Assembly: GCA_947599965.1 (NCBI GenBank)
Contig: CANQFP010000004.1
Location: forward strand, 1 to 49,602
Source: an uncultured Atopobiaceae bacterium
Lineage (GTDB): Bacteria; Actinomycetota; Coriobacteriia; Coriobacteriales; Atopobiaceae
Length of the DNA: 49,602 bases
Reading direction: 5' to 3'
Shown: piece after piece, positions 12,249-20,638 of the stretch
Position numbering within the stretch: the first letter of the stretch is position 1
How the letters are laid out: every line of letters starts with the position of its first letter
The notes under the pieces: model-generated
Database searches by the model: none
The model's input: only the letters and a program-made list of their open reading frames with translations
Told to the model about the DNA's origin: nothing
Program-made: the position numbers and the translations under genes

Positions 12249-13376
12249 ATGGCGAGCTATACGATCTGCTGCCTGCCCGGAGACGGCATCGGCCCCGAGA
12301 TCATCGCCGAGGCGAAGCGCGTGCTCGAGCGCGTGGCCGAGCTCGAGGGCTTCTCGCTCACCATGGAGGACCACCTCATCGGCGGCGCCGCCATCGACGC
12401 CTGCCTAGCGGCCGGCGAGCCGGCCACGGCCCTTCCCGCGGCTACGCTCGAGGCGGCCCGTGCGGCCGACGCCGTGCTCCTCGCAAGCGTGGGAGGCCCC
12501 GCCTGGGAGAGCGACGACCCTGCGGCGCCCCGGCCGGAGCAGGGGCTCCTCGCCATTCGCTCGGAGCTCGGCCTCTATCTGAACCTGCGCCCCGTGAAGG
12601 TCTACGCGCCGCTCAGGAGCGCCTCGGCCTTGAAGCCGGAGCTCCTGGAGGGCGTGGATCTCCTCATCGTGCGCGAGCTCACGGGAGGGCTCTACTTCGG
12701 CGCCAAGGAGCGCATCGAGGACGCCCCCGGCGCGGGCGAGGACGGCGCCTGCGGCGTGTGGTGCTCGGATGCCATGGAATACGGCGAGTGGGAGGTCGAG
12801 CGCGTGCTGCGCTGGGCCTTCGAATGCGCCTCGCGCCGCCCGCGCGGCCGCCTCACCTCGGTGGACAAGGCGAACGTGCTCTTCACGAGCCGGCTCTGGA
12901 GAGAGGTGGCGCACCGGCTCGCAACGGAGTGGCCCGAGGTGGACTACGAGGACCTCTACGTGGACAACGCCGCGATGCAACTCGTGGCCGAGCCCGCGCA
13001 CTTCGACGTCATCTGCACCGAGAACACCTTCGGCGACATCCTCTCCGACGAGGCCGCGCAACTCACGGGCTCGCTCGGCATGCTCGCCTCGGCCTCCCTC
13101 GGCCGCGGCACGCCGCTCTTCGAGCCGAGCCACGGTTCGGCGCCCGATCTCGCCGGGCGCGACGTGGCGAACCCGCTCGCCCAAATTCTCTCGGCGGCGT
13201 TGCTCCTTCGCCACGGGCTCCTCGAAGAAGACGCGGCTGCGCGCATCGAGCGCGCCGTCGAGCGCGTGCTCGAAGACGGCTGGCGCACCGCCGACATCGC
13301 CGACGAAACGACGCCCGCGGATCGCGTCCTCGGCACGCGCGCCATGGGGGATAAGGTCCTGGAAGCGCTCGTCTAG
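12249..13376 (+). CDS. leuB: 3-isopropylmalate dehydrogenase
   Basis: LeuB oxidises and decarboxylates 3-isopropylmalate to 2-oxoisocaproate with NAD+. The 375-residue protein has the expected start (CCLPGDGIGPEI), the substrate-arginine region NLRPVKVY, the ELTGGLYFG motif, the DKANVL segment and the NAD-binding EPSHGSAPDLAGRDVANP motif. It is the last gene of the leucine cluster and overlaps no other gene; it ends 13 bases from the stop of the convergent activase gene, leaving no space for a separate terminator, so the two transcripts may overlap at their 3' ends. Confidence 0.96.
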   Translation: MASYTICCLPGDGIGPEIIAEAKRVLERVAELEGFSLTMEDHLIGGAAIDACLAAGEPATALPAATLEAARAADAVLLASVGGPAWESDDPAAPRPEQGLLAIRSELGLYLNLRPVKVYAPLRSASALKPELLEGVDLLIVRELTGGLYFGAKERIEDAPGAGEDGACGVWCSDAMEYGEWEVERVLRWAFECASRRPRGRLTSVDKANVLFTSRLWREVAHRLATEWPEVDYEDLYVDNAAMQLVAEPAHFDVICTENTFGDILSDEAAQLTGSLGMLASASLGRGTPLFEPSHGSAPDLAGRDVANPLAQILSAALLLRHGLLEEDAAARIERAVERVLEDGWRTADIADETTPADRVLGTRAMGDKVLEALV

Positions 13377-13389
13377 CTCGGGGTTCGCG

Positions 13390-15144
13390 CTACGCGGCGG
13401 CCTCGCCCCGCAGGGCCTCGAGCCCGAGGAGAGCCGCGCCGAGCGCACCGCAGAGCTGGGAATCGCCTGAGGTTTGGATCGGCGAGCCGAGCACCTGCCC
13501 GATCGCGGTGACGACGCCCTCGTTCTTCGCGACGCCGCCCGTCATGAGGTAGGGCGCACTCGCCTTCACGCGCTTGGCGAGTGCGCTCACCTTGGCGGCC
13601 ACGGCCATGTCGAGCCCGTGGATGATGTCGGGCACGGCGGTGTCGTCGGCCACGAGGGAGACGACCTCGCTCTCCGCGAAGACCGTGCACATGGAGCTGA
13701 TCTTCACGTCCTTCTTCCAGGAGAGCCCCTCGGTGCAGAAGCGCTCGAGGTCCATCTCGAGCGTGTTCGCCATCATCTCGAGGAAGCGGCCGGTGCCGGC
13801 GGCGCACTTGTCGTTCATGACGAAGTTCTCCACCTCGCCGGCCTCGCCGAGCTTGATGACCTTGGAGTCTTGGCCGCCGATGTCGATGATCGTGGCGACG
13901 CCGGGAGCGAGCGCGCGGGCGCCGCGGGCGTGGCAGGTGATCTCGGTGATCTGCGTGTCGGCGTCCTGGATGGCGTCGCGGCCATAGCCGGTGGCCACGC
14001 AGAGGGTGATGTCCTCGCGCTTGAGCCCGGCCTTGGCGAGCACGAGCTCCATGACGCGGTGGGCGCTGCGCGTCGCCTTGGCGCCCGTGGGGATGATCTG
14101 CGTGGCGACGATCTTTCCCGCGCCGTCGACGATGACGGCATCGGTGGAGGTGGAGCCGCTGTCGACGCCCATCACGTAGACGGGGCCGCTCGAGACGCGC
14201 GCGCGAATGGTGTCGTTCATACCGACCAGCGTTTCATCGAAGGCTTGCAGACGGGTTCTCAGCTGGCCCGCGCTCTGGCGCGTGCCGTCGGTTTCCACTT
14301 TGAGGATGGGGATGCTCGAGCTGCGCTGGGCCTCGAGGTATTCGAAGCCGTAGTAGTCGCAGAACTTCATCGTGTGGTAGACGACGCCCGCCTGGCCGGT
14401 GGCGCCGATCTGGCCCGTGCGCGAGGAGACGTCGTTCATGCGCATGCAGGGCGTTTGGTGGAGGAGCGCCGGCGCGTACCAGTCGAGGAAGGCCTCGAGG
14501 GGGTCGGCCTCGTCTGCCGGGTGGGCGTCGCACGCCTCCTCGCACGCGGCTTCGCGTGGGGAGCGGCCGAGCTGGGGAGGGGGCGTGGGCAGGAAGCGCC
14601 CACCCGTGCACGTGAGGTTCTCCACGGGAAGCGAGAGCGAGGCCTCGGCCACCTCGAGGAGCGAACCCGGGCCGTGGGCGCCGAGGAGCGTCACGCGCGC
14701 GTCGTGGCGAAGGGTCGGCGGCTTGAAGGAGGCGAGCGCGCGTCCGACGTCGAACTCGGTGCCGGAATGGGCCTTCCAGCCGCGGGCGAGCCGTTCGAGC
14801 TCGCGCCGGAGCCTCGCCACCTCGCGCGGGCCCTGGAGGTGCGGCAGGTCGATGATCCAGAGGAAGTCGAGGCAGCGCTCCTCGGAGAGCACGTCGTAGA
14901 CCCGGCGCATCACGTCGCAGCAGGTCGTGAGGACGAGGGCGTGGACGTCGTCGCGGAGCGCGAAGGAGATGAGCGACTTGCCGAAGCCGCAGAGGTTCGG
15001 GTGGGCGAGGCGATCGGCGTCCTCGAAGGACTCGGCCTCGAAGCTCACCGCCTCCACACGCGCGCCGAAACCGGCCAGAAGCTCGGCCGGCACGTATTTG
15101 CACGGGTAGTAGACCGTGAGCTCGGTGTTCTCGGAGGGCGCCAT
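13390..15144 (-). CDS. 2-hydroxyacyl-CoA dehydratase subunit fused to its ATP-dependent activase
   Basis: This 584-residue protein joins two components that are usually separate. Residues about 1-315 resemble the HgdB/FldC-like dehydratase subunit: YPCKYVPAEL (Cys15), LCGFGKS (Cys52), TTCCDVMRR (Cys75/76) and a late FCDYYGFEYLEA (Cys262) followed by IPILKVETD. From residue 322 it is a BcrAD/BadFG-type activase: VMGVDSGSTSTDAV, TGYGRD, DIGGQDSKV and cluster cysteines Cys447 (NDKCAAGTG) and Cys486 (SSMCTVFAESEV), 39 residues apart as in HgdC. Activases use ATP hydrolysis to fire one electron into the dehydratase, enabling radical removal of water from 2-hydroxyacyl-CoA. It starts two bases after the other subunit gene, so the system is encoded by two polypeptides. 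Substrate is unknown. Confidence 0.85.
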   Translation of the reverse strand: MAPSENTELTVYYPCKYVPAELLAGFGARVEAVSFEAESFEDADRLAHPNLCGFGKSLISFALRDDVHALVLTTCCDVMRRVYDVLSEERCLDFLWIIDLPHLQGPREVARLRRELERLARGWKAHSGTEFDVGRALASFKPPTLRHDARVTLLGAHGPGSLLEVAEASLSLPVENLTCTGGRFLPTPPPQLGRSPREAACEEACDAHPADEADPLEAFLDWYAPALLHQTPCMRMNDVSSRTGQIGATGQAGVVYHTMKFCDYYGFEYLEAQRSSSIPILKVETDGTRQSAGQLRTRLQAFDETLVGMNDTIRARVSSGPVYVMGVDSGSTSTDAVIVDGAGKIVATQIIPTGAKATRSAHRVMELVLAKAGLKREDITLCVATGYGRDAIQDADTQITEITCHARGARALAPGVATIIDIGGQDSKVIKLGEAGEVENFVMNDKCAAGTGRFLEMMANTLEMDLERFCTEGLSWKKDVKISSMCTVFAESEVVSLVADDTAVPDIIHGLDMAVAAKVSALAKRVKASAPYLMTGGVAKNEGVVTAIGQVLGSPIQTSGDSQLCGALGAALLGLEALRGEAAA

Positions 15145-15146
15145 GG

Positions 15147-16529
15147 CTAGCTCTCGACGCCGAGGCCTTCGAGCTCGGCCGCGAGCGCCTCGGCCTCGGC
15201 GGCCTCGCGGGCGTCCTTCTTGGCGTGGAGCATCTCGAGGAAGGCGCCCATGCGCGTGGCGGCTTGGCCGCCGGGGAAGTTGGCGCGATCGCAGCCGTCG
15301 CCGTCGAGGGCGATGGCGGGGTAGCCGCTGCGCTCGAGCTCGCGCACGAGGAGCTGGGAGACGCCCAAGGTCTCCTTGCAGCCCCAGTGGCAGAAGATGA
15401 TGGCGCCGTCGGCCGAGGTCTGCTCGCAGAGCTCGATGAGGCGGTCGGCGCGGCGCTGGCCGGGGCCGTTGTAGGAGTTCTTGATGAGGCGCTCGGCCAT
15501 GGCGAGGTAGGGGTCGCTCGCATCGTGCTCCCAGCCGCTGAAGCTCACCTGGTCGAAGCACATGTCGGAGGCCACGATCTGCTGGTCGGTGTTCACGTCG
15601 ATGAGGCGCTGGAGCGGCACGCAGAAGAAGGGCGCCGCCGCGCTCCACACGACGTTCACGCCGTCGAAGGGCTCGGCCGTGAGGTAGTCGCGCACCATCG
15701 TGCGGGCCATGCGCTCGGTCTCCGGCTCGCCGAGGAGCACGTGGAGCGCGAGGCCGTACTGCATCTCGAGGCCCATGTTGTTCTTCACGAAGCGGCCCGC
15801 GCGCAGGCGCAGCGAGCGCGCCACGAGGTCGAGGGTGCGGATGGAGCAGGCCACCTTCTTGCGGAGGAGGTCCTCGTCGAGGCGCCGACCGTAGATCTCG
15901 GAGGCGGCCCGAGCGAGCTCGCGGAGCTGGTCGGCCACGTAGGCGCAGCCCTCCTCGTCGTAGCCCATGGGCACGTCGATGTAGACCTGGTCGGTGCCGA
16001 AGCGCGCGGAGAGGGTGCGAAACGTCAGGTTGTTCGCGTCGCAGGCCACCGAGCAGTTGGCGATGAGCTTGGGCATCTCGAAGATGTTCGAGAGGAGCGT
16101 GCCGAGGAGCACCCGGTGGTAGGAGCAGTACGTGTTCGGGATGCCCTCTCGCTCGGCGAAGCTGATGCAGCCGGCCTCCGCGTGGGCGCCGGCGATGAAG
16201 TCGCCGACGGCCTCGGCGATGAGCGGGCGCAGGCCGAGGGCGTGGAAGATCTCGTTCGGCATGAAGATGCTCGTGAGGACGCTCTCCTCGGGATGCTCGA
16301 GGGCCCCGGTGATGGCGCTCACCGCGAGGAGCTGCGCCTGCTGGGAGCTCTCGTGCATCCAGGCGTCCGGCAGGTATTCCGAGAGCGCCCGCTTGATCTG
16401 GAATGCCTTCACGAGCCAGTAGGCCGTGTAGTTGGGGCGCTCGTCGATCTGCGCGTCTATGCAGTTAGCCCAAAAGTCGAGGATGCGTACGCCGAGCTTG
16501 TCGCCATCCGATTTCGTCGTGGCCGGCAT
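15147..16529 (-). CDS. 2-hydroxyacyl-CoA dehydratase subunit (HgdA-like)
   Basis: This 460-residue protein is a dehydratase-type [4Fe-4S] subunit. Visible cysteines in family positions are Cys135 (YCSYHRV), Cys159 and Cys163 (NCSVACDANN), and Cys380/Cys384 (FCHWGCKETLG), with the C-terminal ALDGDGCDRANF segment that matches the conserved LDxDxxD region. A MPNEI motif lies near residue 90. It should pair with the N-terminal half of the downstream fusion protein. The start at 16529 has ggggggagac upstream and lies inside the end of the preceding metallopeptidase gene. Known members dehydrate hydroxyglutaryl-, lactoyl- or phenyllactyl-CoA during amino-acid fermentation; which of these applies cannot be decided here. 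Confidence 0.82.
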   Translation of the reverse strand: MPATTKSDGDKLGVRILDFWANCIDAQIDERPNYTAYWLVKAFQIKRALSEYLPDAWMHESSQQAQLLAVSAITGALEHPEESVLTSIFMPNEIFHALGLRPLIAEAVGDFIAGAHAEAGCISFAEREGIPNTYCSYHRVLLGTLLSNIFEMPKLIANCSVACDANNLTFRTLSARFGTDQVYIDVPMGYDEEGCAYVADQLRELARAASEIYGRRLDEDLLRKKVACSIRTLDLVARSLRLRAGRFVKNNMGLEMQYGLALHVLLGEPETERMARTMVRDYLTAEPFDGVNVVWSAAAPFFCVPLQRLIDVNTDQQIVASDMCFDQVSFSGWEHDASDPYLAMAERLIKNSYNGPGQRRADRLIELCEQTSADGAIIFCHWGCKETLGVSQLLVRELERSGYPAIALDGDGCDRANFPGGQAATRMGAFLEMLHAKKDAREAAEAEALAAELEGLGVES

Positions 16530-19461
16530 CGTCGTCTCCCCCCGTGCCGCCGTTGATGAGTGGTTCGGCGACCGCTCCCACGCTCGAGGCCTCGATGAGG
16601 GATCGCTCGCCTAGGCAGCAGATACCCGCTTTGGCTATGAGCCTTTCCAGCGGCTCCGCCAGAGCACGCAGCTGCTCGGGGGTTGTGGCGAGGATCTCGG
16701 CGCGATGGAGCGCCCGGGCGTCCGCGGGCTCCTCGGCGATGCGGGCGACGTCGAGGCGACGGAGCATCGCCCGAGCCCTGAGGGGTTTGTCGACGGATCC
16801 GATGCAGGCGACGATGTAGCCGTCCACGTCCTCGGCGCTGAGCGGGGTTTCGGCGAGCCAGCGCGCCGAGGCGCGGTAGCGCTCGAGCGTGGGATCCACG
16901 GCCGGGTCGCGGAAGGAGTAGAAGCCGCACACCTCGCCGCCGCCGGCGCGGCAGCCGGAGCCGTAGGCGCCGCCGAGCACGCGCACCTCGCGCCAGAGGT
17001 AGTCGTAGGTGAGGGCGCGGGCGGCCACGCTCACGCAGCCGGAGCCGCCGAGCGAGGCGTCCTCGAAGCCGCCTCCGAGCGCCACGTAGGCGACGCCCGC
17101 GGGCACGTAGTAGGCTTCGACGTCCGTTGCGGGGGGCTCGATCGCGAGCGAGCCCGTGCGCGGCGAGGAGGCGGGGAGGCCCGCCACCGGATCCTTCTCC
17201 CAGAAGGTCCTCGCGTCGGGGCCGCAGGCGACGACGGTCAGCCGATCGGCCGTGAAGACGCGCTTCGCGAGGGAGGCGAGCTTCGCCGCGAGGGCGTCGA
17301 ATCGCTCGTCGAAGTGCTCGATGAGCTCGCCCAGCCAGCGGTAGAACTCGATGCCGGCCGTGGCTTGGGAGATGCGAGCCGCGAGCGAGGTGCGCATGGC
17401 GGTGCGCGTGAGCGCGACCGCGTGGCCGCCCGAGACCATGGCCTGCTCCATGGAGAGCTTGCGCTGGCTCAGGATGGCGAGGATGCGCTCGGGCTCGTAG
17501 AAGTTCGTCTCGAGCCAGATCTCGCGGGTGAGCTCGATGAGGGCGTCCACGTTCTCGGGCAGAACCGCGCAGAACGTGGCGAAGTTCGTCTTCGCCCGCT
17601 CCGCCCGGTGCCAGAGCGGTGTGGCGTCGACGGCGAAGGCGAGGTCGCCGAGCTTGGATTCCACGAGCGTGTCGAGCTCGTCTGCCGTGTGGCGCTTGGT
17701 GGGGAGCTTGCCGAGGAGCTCCGAGAGGATGGAGAGCAGCGGCAGCTCGGAGGCGTCGGTGCCCTCGAGATCGAAGTCGTAGACGAGGTAATCGATGCCG
17801 TGCGTCTCGAGGTCGGCGACGAGAAGCGGCGCTCCGGAGACGGGCTCGAGCTCGGGATCTGCCGGCGCGTCGCCGATCTCATCCGGCGTGAGGCGCGGGA
17901 GCGTGGCCAGGGCCTCCGGGGTGTCGGGCGCGGCTTGGAGCTCGTGGAGCCGCTTCGTCTCGGCCACGATCTCCGCCACCTGCGCATCGGTGAGCGTGGC
18001 CTTGAGGGCCGCGAGCTCGGCGTCCTCGCTCGCGAGCGCGCCGTCGCCCTCGGGCCTGAGCTCCACCACGCAGGCGTGGTCGCAGGCGAGGAACTCCCCG
18101 AGGAGCTCCTCGTAGAGCCCGGTTTCGAGGCCCTCCTTGAGATCGGCGAGCGCCTCCTCGTAGCGCAGGTAGGAGAGGGGGTCCGCCTCGTCGTAGAGCC
18201 AGCTCGCGAGGCTCGCCATGGCGTGGGCGATGCCGAGCGGATAGGAGCTCTCGCCCTCGCGCAGCGCGAACTCGGCGCCCGCGAGGGCCGCCTCGAGGCG
18301 CTCTCTCGGGATGCCCTCGTCTGCGAAGCCCGTGAGGCTCTCCACGAGGAGCTCGCGGAAGGGCTTTGCGGCGCCCGCCTCGGCACCCTTGAGCTCGAAG
18401 AGGAGGAAGGGCTGCGCGCAGCCGTCCACGACGTAGCAGATGAGGTCCTTGCCGAGGCCGCTTTGGAGCACGGCGCGCTTGAGGGGCGCCTCGTTGGAGC
18501 CGGCGAGGGCGTCGAGGATGATGTCGGCGGCGAGGATGCGCTCGCGGTCGCTCGAGGTGGCGAAGACGAGGCCGACGGCCACGGAGGCGTTCTCGGGCGA
18601 GGTGGCCATGGTCTTCACGGCGCTCGTCCAGCCCGTGGGCCGCTGGAGCGCGAGCGGATTCGGCTCGCCCGCGCCCTCGAGGTCGAGCGCCGCCAGATGC
18701 TCGTCGAGGAAGGCGAGCTCGCGCTCGAGGTCGAGGTCGCCGTAGAAGACGGCGTGGGCGTTCTCGGGGCGGTAGTGGCGCCTGTGGGCGTCGCAGTAGG
18801 CCTCGTAGGTGAGGCTCGGGATGGCCGCGGGATCGCCGCCCGATTCGAAGCGGTAGCACGTATCGGGGAAGAGTGCCTGCTTCACGCCCAGGTAGAGCAC
18901 GTCGCTCGGGTCGGAGAGCGCGCCGCGCATCTCGTTCAAGACGACGCCGTTTCGCTTGAGGGGCGCGTCGGCGCCCTCGAGCTCGAGGTGCCAGCCCTCC
19001 TGCTCGAAGATCTCCGGGCGCCGGTGCAGGTCGGGGTGGAAGACGGCGTCGAAGTAGACGTCGATCAGGTTCTCGAGGTCGTCCACGTTCGTGGTGGCCA
19101 CGGGATACATCGTCTTGTCGGGGAAGGTGAAGGCGTTCAGAAACGTCGCCATGGACGTCTTCAGCAACTCGACGAAGGGCTCCTTCACCGGGTAGCGCGC
19201 CGATCCGTCGAGGACCGAGTGCTCGAGGATGTGGAAGACGCCGGTGTCGTCGGCGGGCGGCGTCTTGAAGGAGATGGAGAAGGAGCGCTCCACGTCGTCG
19301 TTGGCGAGCCAGAGGAGCCGAAGCCCCGTGGGCTTGTGGGTGAAGACGAGCGCCTCACCCGAGATCTCGGGGACGCTCTCGATGGATTCGAGTTCGAAAC
19401 CGGAAAAAACCGCCCCGGGGATCACGTTCGGATCCGTGGACGGCAGGCCGTGGAGGGGCAT
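16465..19461 (-). CDS. M16C family metallopeptidase (presequence protease-like)
   Basis: This 998-residue protein resembles the single-chain M16C (PreP-type) zinc peptidases that degrade short peptides in a closed chamber. The inverted zinc motif HXXEH is present as HILEH near residue 75, followed by VLDGSARYPVKEPF, and the C-terminal half has the LGGAYGSGCRAGGGE segment typical of the family. No signal peptide is visible, so it is probably cytoplasmic. The ATG at 19461 gives the family-typical start, with aaggaag about ten bases upstream. The last 35 or so residues look unrelated to the family and overlap the next gene by 65 bases. Its connection to the downstream dehydratase genes is unknown. 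Confidence 0.85.
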   Translation of the reverse strand: MPLHGLPSTDPNVIPGAVFSGFELESIESVPEISGEALVFTHKPTGLRLLWLANDDVERSFSISFKTPPADDTGVFHILEHSVLDGSARYPVKEPFVELLKTSMATFLNAFTFPDKTMYPVATTNVDDLENLIDVYFDAVFHPDLHRRPEIFEQEGWHLELEGADAPLKRNGVVLNEMRGALSDPSDVLYLGVKQALFPDTCYRFESGGDPAAIPSLTYEAYCDAHRRHYRPENAHAVFYGDLDLERELAFLDEHLAALDLEGAGEPNPLALQRPTGWTSAVKTMATSPENASVAVGLVFATSSDRERILAADIILDALAGSNEAPLKRAVLQSGLGKDLICYVVDGCAQPFLLFELKGAEAGAAKPFRELLVESLTGFADEGIPRERLEAALAGAEFALREGESSYPLGIAHAMASLASWLYDEADPLSYLRYEEALADLKEGLETGLYEELLGEFLACDHACVVELRPEGDGALASEDAELAALKATLTDAQVAEIVAETKRLHELQAAPDTPEALATLPRLTPDEIGDAPADPELEPVSGAPLLVADLETHGIDYLVYDFDLEGTDASELPLLSILSELLGKLPTKRHTADELDTLVESKLGDLAFAVDATPLWHRAERAKTNFATFCAVLPENVDALIELTREIWLETNFYEPERILAILSQRKLSMEQAMVSGGHAVALTRTAMRTSLAARISQATAGIEFYRWLGELIEHFDERFDALAAKLASLAKRVFTADRLTVVACGPDARTFWEKDPVAGLPASSPRTGSLAIEPPATDVEAYYVPAGVAYVALGGGFEDASLGGSGCVSVAARALTYDYLWREVRVLGGAYGSGCRAGGGEVCGFYSFRDPAVDPTLERYRASARWLAETPLSAEDVDGYIVACIGSVDKPLRARAMLRRLDVARIAEEPADARALHRAEILATTPEQLRALAEPLERLIAKAGICCLGERSLIEASSVGAVAEPLINGGTGGDDDAGHDEIGWRQARRTHPRLLG

Positions 19462-19499
19462 GGGCACCCGACTTCCTTTCGGGGTTCTACCTTGGGAAA

Positions 19500-19520
19500 G
19501 GGGAGCCTGCTCGGCTCCCC
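19500..19520 (-). terminator. Intrinsic terminator of the wall-hydrolase-like gene
   Basis: On the minus strand, GGGGAGCC and GGCTCCCC form an 8-bp stem with a 5-base loop, followed by TTTCCC. It lies eight bases beyond the stop of the upstream secreted protein gene and separates it from the metallopeptidase gene, which therefore probably has its own promoter in the short gap or relies on read-through. Confidence 0.75.
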
Positions 19521-19528
19521 CTCGGATT

Positions 19529-20638
19529 TCAGATCTTGGCCATCTCGCTTGCCGTGGCAATGTACCAATCCTGCCACGTCGGCGGACAGTATTTCTGTGC
19601 CGCGGCTTGGGAGATGGTGTAGCCGTAGCCCTGGGCGAGGCCGCGCACGTGAGCGCGGATGGCGGTGTCCCAATCGGGCCAGGAGGCCTGCCCCCATCCC
19701 CAGGCGTTGTGGGGCAGGAAGCACACCGCGCCCTTGGAGCTCTCGGTGTTGGAGATGGCGGGGGACCAGCGGGGATCCACGCCGTAGTCGCAGGCGGCCT
19801 CGGCGAAGGCGTAGCCGTAGCCCGCGAGGGGCGAACCCGCGAGGTAGGCGTCGATGCGCTGGGTCCATTCGGAGATGAAGGCCTCGCGGTCGCCTTCGCC
19901 CGCCTCCGGGGCGGGCTCGGCCGGGGCGACGGGCGCTTCGGGGGCCTGGGGTTCGGGGTTCGTGGCCGGCGGCTGGTTCTGGGGCTTCGTGGACTGGATG
20001 GCGTCGTCGAGGGCGGCGGTGTCACCCGTCACCACGGCCTGCTGGGCGGCCGTCTTCGCGGCCGCGCGGGCGGCCTCCTCGGCGGCCTTGCGCCTGGCCT
20101 CGGCGATGGCCTCGTCCCGGGCCTTCTCGGCCTCCTCGAGGGCGTCGTCGGCGATCTTGCGCTGCTCCTCGGCCTCGGCCTTCTGGGCCTCGATGGTCTG
20201 CTGCGTGCGCTGGAGCTCGGCCTTCAGCTCGACGAGGCGGTTGGCCTCGTCGGCGTTGGCCTCTTGGATCGCGGCCATGTAGTTCACCATCGAGATGAAG
20301 GAGTTGAAGTCGTCGGAGGAGAGGATGAGCTCGATGAGGCCGTTTCTGTTCTGCTCGAGCTTGTAGAGGCGACGCACGGCGTCGGCGCTCTTGGCCTTCT
20401 GATCGGGGATCTGCGCCTCGATGGCGCTGATCTTCTGCTGGTTCTCGGCCGCCGAGGCCTCGAGCGCCTCCACCTTGGCCATGGCGTCTTCGTAGGTCTT
20501 GCCCGCCTCGCCCACGCGCTGCTCGAGCTCCTCGATCGAGGTGGCCGCGGCCGGCGTGGCGAGCGCGAAGGAGAGCGCGCAGACGCAGGCCACGGCGCCT
20601 GCGAGGAGGGCGCTGAGCTTTGCTTTGGGGTCCTGCAT
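19529..20638 (-). CDS. Secreted coiled-coil protein with lysozyme-like C-terminal domain
   Basis: The 369-residue protein begins with a signal peptide (KLSALLAGAVACVCALSF, cleavage likely after ATPAAA near residue 32). Residues about 33-200 form a long coiled coil like the N-termini of NlpC/P60 wall hydrolases and EnvC/CwlO proteins. A Pro/Ala/Glu-rich linker (220-250) leads to a C-terminal domain (about 252-369) with SNTESSKG and HNAWGWG. This resembles lysozyme/lytic-transglycosylase folds, with Glu299 as the likely catalytic acid; no NlpC Cys-His pattern is seen. It probably acts on extracellular peptidoglycan. The ATG at 20638 has aaagga thirteen bases upstream, a long spacing; upstream in-frame reading has no homology. 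Confidence 0.75.
   Translation of the reverse strand: MQDPKAKLSALLAGAVACVCALSFALATPAAATSIEELEQRVGEAGKTYEDAMAKVEALEASAAENQQKISAIEAQIPDQKAKSADAVRRLYKLEQNRNGLIELILSSDDFNSFISMVNYMAAIQEANADEANRLVELKAELQRTQQTIEAQKAEAEEQRKIADDALEEAEKARDEAIAEARRKAAEEAARAAAKTAAQQAVVTGDTAALDDAIQSTKPQNQPPATNPEPQAPEAPVAPAEPAPEAGEGDREAFISEWTQRIDAYLAGSPLAGYGYAFAEAACDYGVDPRWSPAISNTESSKGAVCFLPHNAWGWGQASWPDWDTAIRAHVRGLAQGYGYTISQAAAQKYCPPTWQDWYIATASEMAKI

Follow-up and report, generated by a model that had tools for sequence, protein, structure and literature searches.

What kind of enzyme is encoded where a subunit of the 2-hydroxyacyl-CoA dehydratase superfamily runs on into its own activase, and is such a fusion real? The question is raised by a two-gene unit in a 49,602-nucleotide stretch of DNA (the window, contig CANQFP010000004.1) from an uncultured Atopobiaceae bacterium, an actinobacterium of gut type. 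The first gene, here called H (15147..16529; all features of the unit lie on the - strand), encodes a protein of 460 amino acids with one HGD-D domain (PF06050, 1.7e-51), a predicted HgdA/BzdO-like catalytic subunit. The second, N-A (13390..15144), encodes 584 amino acids plus stop and carries PF06050 followed by PF01869/TIGR00241, that is, an HGD-D domain (N) and an activase domain (A). An initial annotation had taken the unit for a 2-hydroxyacyl-CoA dehydratase (HAD). Our analysis favors, at a probability of roughly 0.6, an uncharacterised ATP-driven double-cubane radical enzyme of the benzoyl-CoA reductase (BCR)/HAD superfamily that is most likely reductase-type.

The fusion is real and is the normal form of a widespread family

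The fusion does not result from a sequencing error, and it is not rare. Both domain searches proposed in the initial annotation, for PF06050 and PF01869, gave matches to the fusion protein: HGD-D matched from residue 15 (2e-31) and BcrAD_BadFG matched residues 326 to 574 (4e-59). With TIGR00241, a score of 239.9 bits was obtained, which passes the domain cut-off of 125.4. The open reading frame and these matches thus bear out the covalent fusion of a D-component-type subunit with a complete activase in a two-gene unit. The stop codon of H is separated from the ATG of the fusion by 2 bases (tag-cc-atg); the initial annotation had wrongly placed the start of the partner gene there, which is at 16529.

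The source assembly is a fragmented draft of 96 contigs (the genome is 96% complete), and a missed stop or frameshift near 14180 had been named as a possible source of a false fusion. Such an assembly or sequencing artefact has next to no probability left. The orthologue in genome G005, from the same genus, is 86% identical through the junction, in frame and with an equal linker length, and an unbroken frame across the junction is also present in 48 of 50 Coriobacteriales genomes and in named genomes such as that of Clostridium carboxidivorans P7.

These counts come from a survey of 297 sampled Coriobacteriales genomes, in which the N domain was found in 50 genomes (29 of 107 genera). N and A share one frame in 48 of the 50; of the other two loci, L185 runs off its contig and the frame of L191 is broken inside N. 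Each locus was read, and a separate activase was found in none of the 50. H was present in all 52 N-bearing genomes examined and, in almost every member of the family, immediately precedes the fusion gene. The unit also occurs in about 30 Clostridia, one Spirochaetaceae and one Thermotogota genome, and its named carriers include Lachnospiraceae, Oscillospiraceae and C. carboxidivorans P7. In a tree of activases, all N-A fusions fell into one clade with a support of 97 for 85 rows, which the Thermotogota row joins at 82. Of three apparently separate activases within this clade, two are fragments at the edge of a contig (L113, L114) and the third is a copy with a broken frame (L115). Operons with unfused N, H and A occur in Desulfobacterota, archaea and Bacillota. 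The N-A fusion is thus how this widespread and uncharacterised family is normally built, and the view that the fusion is rare and unusual was not borne out: the initial annotation had named in advance a common fused form as speaking against that view, and the fused form is the common one in Coriobacteriales, within a clade that includes Clostridia.

A second type of fusion was seen in Planctomycetes/Scalindua (L121, L124, L133, L147). It resembles N-A in combining an activase and an HGD-D domain in one chain, with a full-length H adjoining where the contig allows (L124, L147). The domain order is reversed, however, the activase preceding HGD-D, and the A-N proteins form their own clade in the activase tree (support 98). 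Reverse order and separate clade together indicate an independent fusion event.

The N domain carries the ligand signature of a double cubane

The N domain (residues 1 to 306; 14227..15144) contains six cysteines that are invariant in 36 of 36 family sequences. Each aligns with one of the six residues published as ligands of the [8Fe-9S] double cubane of BzdN, the N-type subunit of a class I BCR (PMC11971306): Cys15 (15100..15102) with BzdN Cys36, Cys52 (14989..14991) with Cys73, Cys76 (14917..14919) with Cys100, Cys179 (14608..14610) with Cys263, Cys233 (14446..14448) with Cys293, and Cys262 (14359..14361) with Cys327. In profile alignments, the six residues also fall on six cysteines of DCCP (6eno/7yyl), whereas HadC, the beta subunit of a dehydratase with its single cubane ([4Fe-5S]), lacks the first and the fourth of them. 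Reports of a [8Fe-9S] double cubane are limited to DCCP and class I BCR, of which BCR alone has a defined role (PMC11971306).

The N-domain profile (A3) found its best structure matches in DCCP (113 bits), HadC (73 bits) and BzdN (68 bits). NF040772 (double-cubane reductase) matched 32 of 32 fusions tested, the fusion of the window with 63.7 of 350 bits and thus below the equivalog cut-off. An AlphaFold (AF2) model of N-A had a pLDDT of 88.5. The N domain is shorter than its relatives: a stretch of about 57 residues that matches BzdN 171-228 and makes up the greater part of the helical intermediate domain as delimited in BzdN (PMC11971306) is missing; the absence of this segment from a fused N domain is a new observation.

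The H subunit retains a predicted [4Fe-4S] site and catalytic glutamate

In 40 of 40 H sequences, exactly three cysteines and also Glu106 are invariant. Cys135 (16125..16127) and Cys384 (15378..15380) align with the BzdO cluster ligands Cys95 and Cys380, and Cys163 (16041..16043) is the equivalent of the ligand Cys128 (PMC11971306), with a one-residue ambiguity in the hidden Markov model alignment because BzdO has CC. Glu106 (16212..16214) aligns with HadB Glu55 and would, by homology, correspond to the catalytic acid Glu65 of BzdO (PMC11971306). His131 of BzdO is replaced in H by an invariant Asn166, again with a one-residue alignment ambiguity at that position. The AF2 model of H (pLDDT 94.1) had HadB and BzdO as its nearest folds, the best being 3o3m chain C (Z 39.2), and it keeps the helical intermediate region, which lines the CoA channel in BzdO (PMC11971306).

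Reductase, dehydratase or DCCP-like enzyme

The unit shares several traits with HAD (HadBC/HadI, HgdAB/HgdC). It has two HGD-D subunits, both PF06050, and an activase (PF01869/TIGR00241) that is 45 to 46% identical to HadI/HgdC, as well as an alpha-type subunit with three cysteine ligands and an active-site Glu (C135, C163, C384, E106). The H profile scored as near to HadB (96.5 bits) as to BzdO (91.5 bits), which have the same three cysteines and Glu. A true dehydratase with a fused activase, in which a one-electron activation is recycled over many turnovers and no net reduction takes place, would account for all this. Against it, N keeps all six double-cubane ligands, two of which HadC has lost, and the scores with the HadB/HadC equivalogs of NCBIfam stayed far below their cut-offs (49.1 of 750 and 28.2 of 700 bits). 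The activase of HAD is also separate, and no genes of HAD operons were conserved neighbours here: in the gene-neighbourhood comparison, neither a CoA-transferase nor a hydroxyacid dehydrogenase family accompanied H and N-A in a conserved manner. We consider a dehydratase unlikely on these grounds, and the assignment made in the initial annotation is not supported. Moreover, if both cubanes are kept, more than one electron may be stored, as proposed for BzdN, which suggests that the substrate is reduced on balance and that a single electron is not recycled as it is in dehydratases. The sequence thus points to a reductase-like machine and not to an ordinary dehydratase.

Could the unit instead be DCCP-like and act on small or non-CoA substrates, with H turned into the second half of the dimer? 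DCCP is the top profile match of N, has the six aligned cysteines and an ATP-driven partner of activase fold (DCCP-R; 6eno, 7yyl), NF040772 matches all the fusions tested, and there are no CoA-pathway neighbours. DCCP, however, is a homodimer from one gene that holds two double cubanes and works with a separate reductase, whereas here the activase is fused. H, for its part, possesses just three of the six cysteines of a double cubane and, like CoA-ester enzymes, keeps the [4Fe-4S] site and the catalytic Glu, together with the helical region of the CoA channel. We regard this explanation as somewhat less probable still than a dehydratase.

By its working principle, H plus N-A would resemble class I BCR (BzdNOPQ, MbdONPQ, BcrABCD) and DCCP. 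The likeness to class I BCR extends from the six ligands in N and the three [4Fe-4S] ligands plus Glu in H to the A domain, which is 45% identical to MbdQ. In other respects the two differ. Class I BCR has two different activase subunits (P/Q, A/D), whereas one HgdC-type activase was found in this genome, covalently fused; N lacks the segment of about 57 residues; BzdO combines its three cysteines with Glu65 and His131, the last of which is replaced; and the unit has no conserved aromatic-degradation neighbours and scores under all BCR equivalog cut-offs. Since the equivalog cut-offs of HAD, BCR and DCCP are all missed and the N domain departs from a HAD beta subunit, H and N-A form an uncharacterised subfamily of the BCR/HAD superfamily.

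Several points, none of them biochemical, weigh against a reductase-type double-cubane enzyme. Conserved cysteines are no proof of a cluster type, and the fold search with the N domain cannot tell DCCP (7yzm, Z 24.9), BzdN (Z 24.8) and HadC (Z 23.7) apart. H scores about equally with a dehydratase and a reductase subunit, and the replacement of BzdO His131 by Asn means that reduction of an aromatic ring is not implied. Finally, no pathway neighbours point to a substrate. A neighbourhood search for such a clue found only an M16C-type protease conserved upstream in Coriobacteriales, and the low-GC loci share no clear neighbour; most other neighbour clusters in Coriobacteriales are antisense frames of high-GC genes.

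The activase domain and its linker

The A domain (residues 322 to 576; 13417..14181) is a complete HgdC/HadI-type activase. Its best folds are HgdC and MbdQ, and it is 46% identical to 1hux (Z 37.9). Cys447 (13804..13806) and Cys486 (13687..13689), which the initial annotation had noted at a distance of 39 residues, were verified in the translated sequence; both are invariant and, by homology to HgdC, are the predicted ligands of a [4Fe-4S] cluster at the homodimer interface. This is the sole HgdC-type activase found in the 96%-complete genome. Two other activase matches both lie in a PlsA-like protein with two activase domains and DUF2229 (contig C1, locus L010, 1063-5721, - strand), and similar PlsA-like frames of about 1550 amino acids were seen in most Coriobacteriales searched. 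TIGR03286 (methanogenesis marker 15, Mmp15) aligns to residues 273 to 573 of the fusion, that is, to the activase and about 50 residues of the N-domain end, a hint that a vestige of this pairing of domains may persist in Mmp15.

The linker (residues 307 to 321; 14182..14226) is 0 to 67% identical among orthologues, compared with 53 to 91% in A, coincides with a dip in AF2 confidence and varies in length, with 15 residues here and more in some relatives. In many Clostridia and a few Coriobacteriales (for example L057, L059 and L102), an in-frame ATG with a Shine-Dalgarno (SD)-like sequence lies 4 to 13 codons before the activase. Such sites were seen in L057, L059, L099-L102, L104, L107, L108 and others, of which L083, L102 and L105 stand out. 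They raise the possibility of a dual-product gene, in which internal starts in the linker would also make free activase and thereby N-A:A heterodimers with one activase dimer per H-N pair. Strong SD pairing was indeed found at 26% of linker ATGs but at only 4% of other internal ATGs. When synonymous codons were reshuffled, however, this enrichment was mostly gone (37% observed versus 25% expected; z -2.3, the relatives not being independent), most of the SD excess follows from linkers rich in Lys, Glu and Gly, and the gene of the window has no such internal start site. We therefore keep the internal start only as an improbable alternative.

One fusion and two H genes in some genomes

Two H genes accompany a single fusion in 11 of 52 genomes, likewise a new observation, and in 7 of these 11, including the genome of the window, the second H lies apart from the fusion. 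No N or A was found beside the second H in six of the seven genomes, whose surroundings were examined, and the catalytic residues checked were all kept. In the genome of the window, the orphan H paralogue (contig C91, locus L009, 1958-3262, + strand) encodes 435 amino acids, is 33% identical to protein P0002 and has all catalytic residues; neither N nor an activase lies next to it on C91, which is only 3.3 kb long. Orthologues of the orphan H were found in G005, G002, G027, G071, G025 and G007. In five loci (L051, L052, L081, L082, L171), a tandem pair of H genes precedes one fusion.

With two H genes, one fusion and a sole HgdC-type activase, the gene content of this genome suggests that one fusion may feed two catalytic subunits. 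We tentatively consider that N-A could be a shared hub, with one pump and one double-cubane store, that dimerises via the activase and serves two different H subunits; at present this is possible rather than probable. A dimeric activase with two N domains would in principle have two H-N pairs per docking face, from which alternating docking or shared use would follow naturally. If this were true, the superfamily would gain a new kind of architecture: a particle of composition (H.N-A)2 or H1.NA:NA.H2 in which docking alternates.

Genomic surroundings

On the downstream side, leuB converges on the fusion gene and ends at 13376. Upstream of H, the frame of an M16C-type peptidase (16465-20025) ends at 16465 and thus shares 65 bases with H when H is read from its first possible start. 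A related frame lies ahead of the unit in about 20 Coriobacteriales loci.

A proposed mechanism

Taking the fusion, its conservation, its single-clade origin, the ligand signatures and the predicted folds as given, we infer the cluster type, electron path, tether behaviour and oligomer as follows. Two fusion chains would dimerise via their activase domains around one shared [4Fe-4S] cluster. The dimer would take up an electron from a low-potential carrier (ferredoxin or flavodoxin), and ATP hydrolysis would drive the electron into the [8Fe-9S] double cubane of the attached N domain. N would store low-potential electrons and hand them on to H, a separate subunit with a [4Fe-4S] active site at which the substrate, probably a CoA thioester, would be reduced or reductively dehydrated. 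The linker may act as a flexible tether that lets the activase dock and undock without leaving. Indeed, its low conservation and variable length fit a tether better than a rigid lock, so that of the two consequences expected in the initial annotation, a fixed stoichiometry is likely, but a donor that cannot dissociate from its target is not implied.

Precedents also exist for the permanent association of an activase with its partner. In class I benzoyl-CoA reductases of the BCR and MBR types, the activase module stays bound permanently (PMC11971306), and the plasmalogen synthase PlsA/PlsAR, in which activase and HGD-D-superfamily parts are naturally linked in one covalent chain, is active when expressed in Escherichia coli (PMC12838417). 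PlsA combines two activase domains and DUF2229 in one chain of about 1550 amino acids, whereas N-A contains a single activase, lacks DUF2229 and has its catalytic partner encoded by another gene. We found no description of the N-A architecture in the open literature on activase fusions.

Significance

The present reading would correct a likely misannotation of these proteins as 2-hydroxyacyl-CoA dehydratase. A two-gene, self-contained version of a double-cubane enzyme in gut Coriobacteria and Clostridia would be a tractable target: because pump and store lie in one polypeptide at a fixed ratio, it would allow direct tests of how the activase docks, a step that is difficult to study when it is transient.

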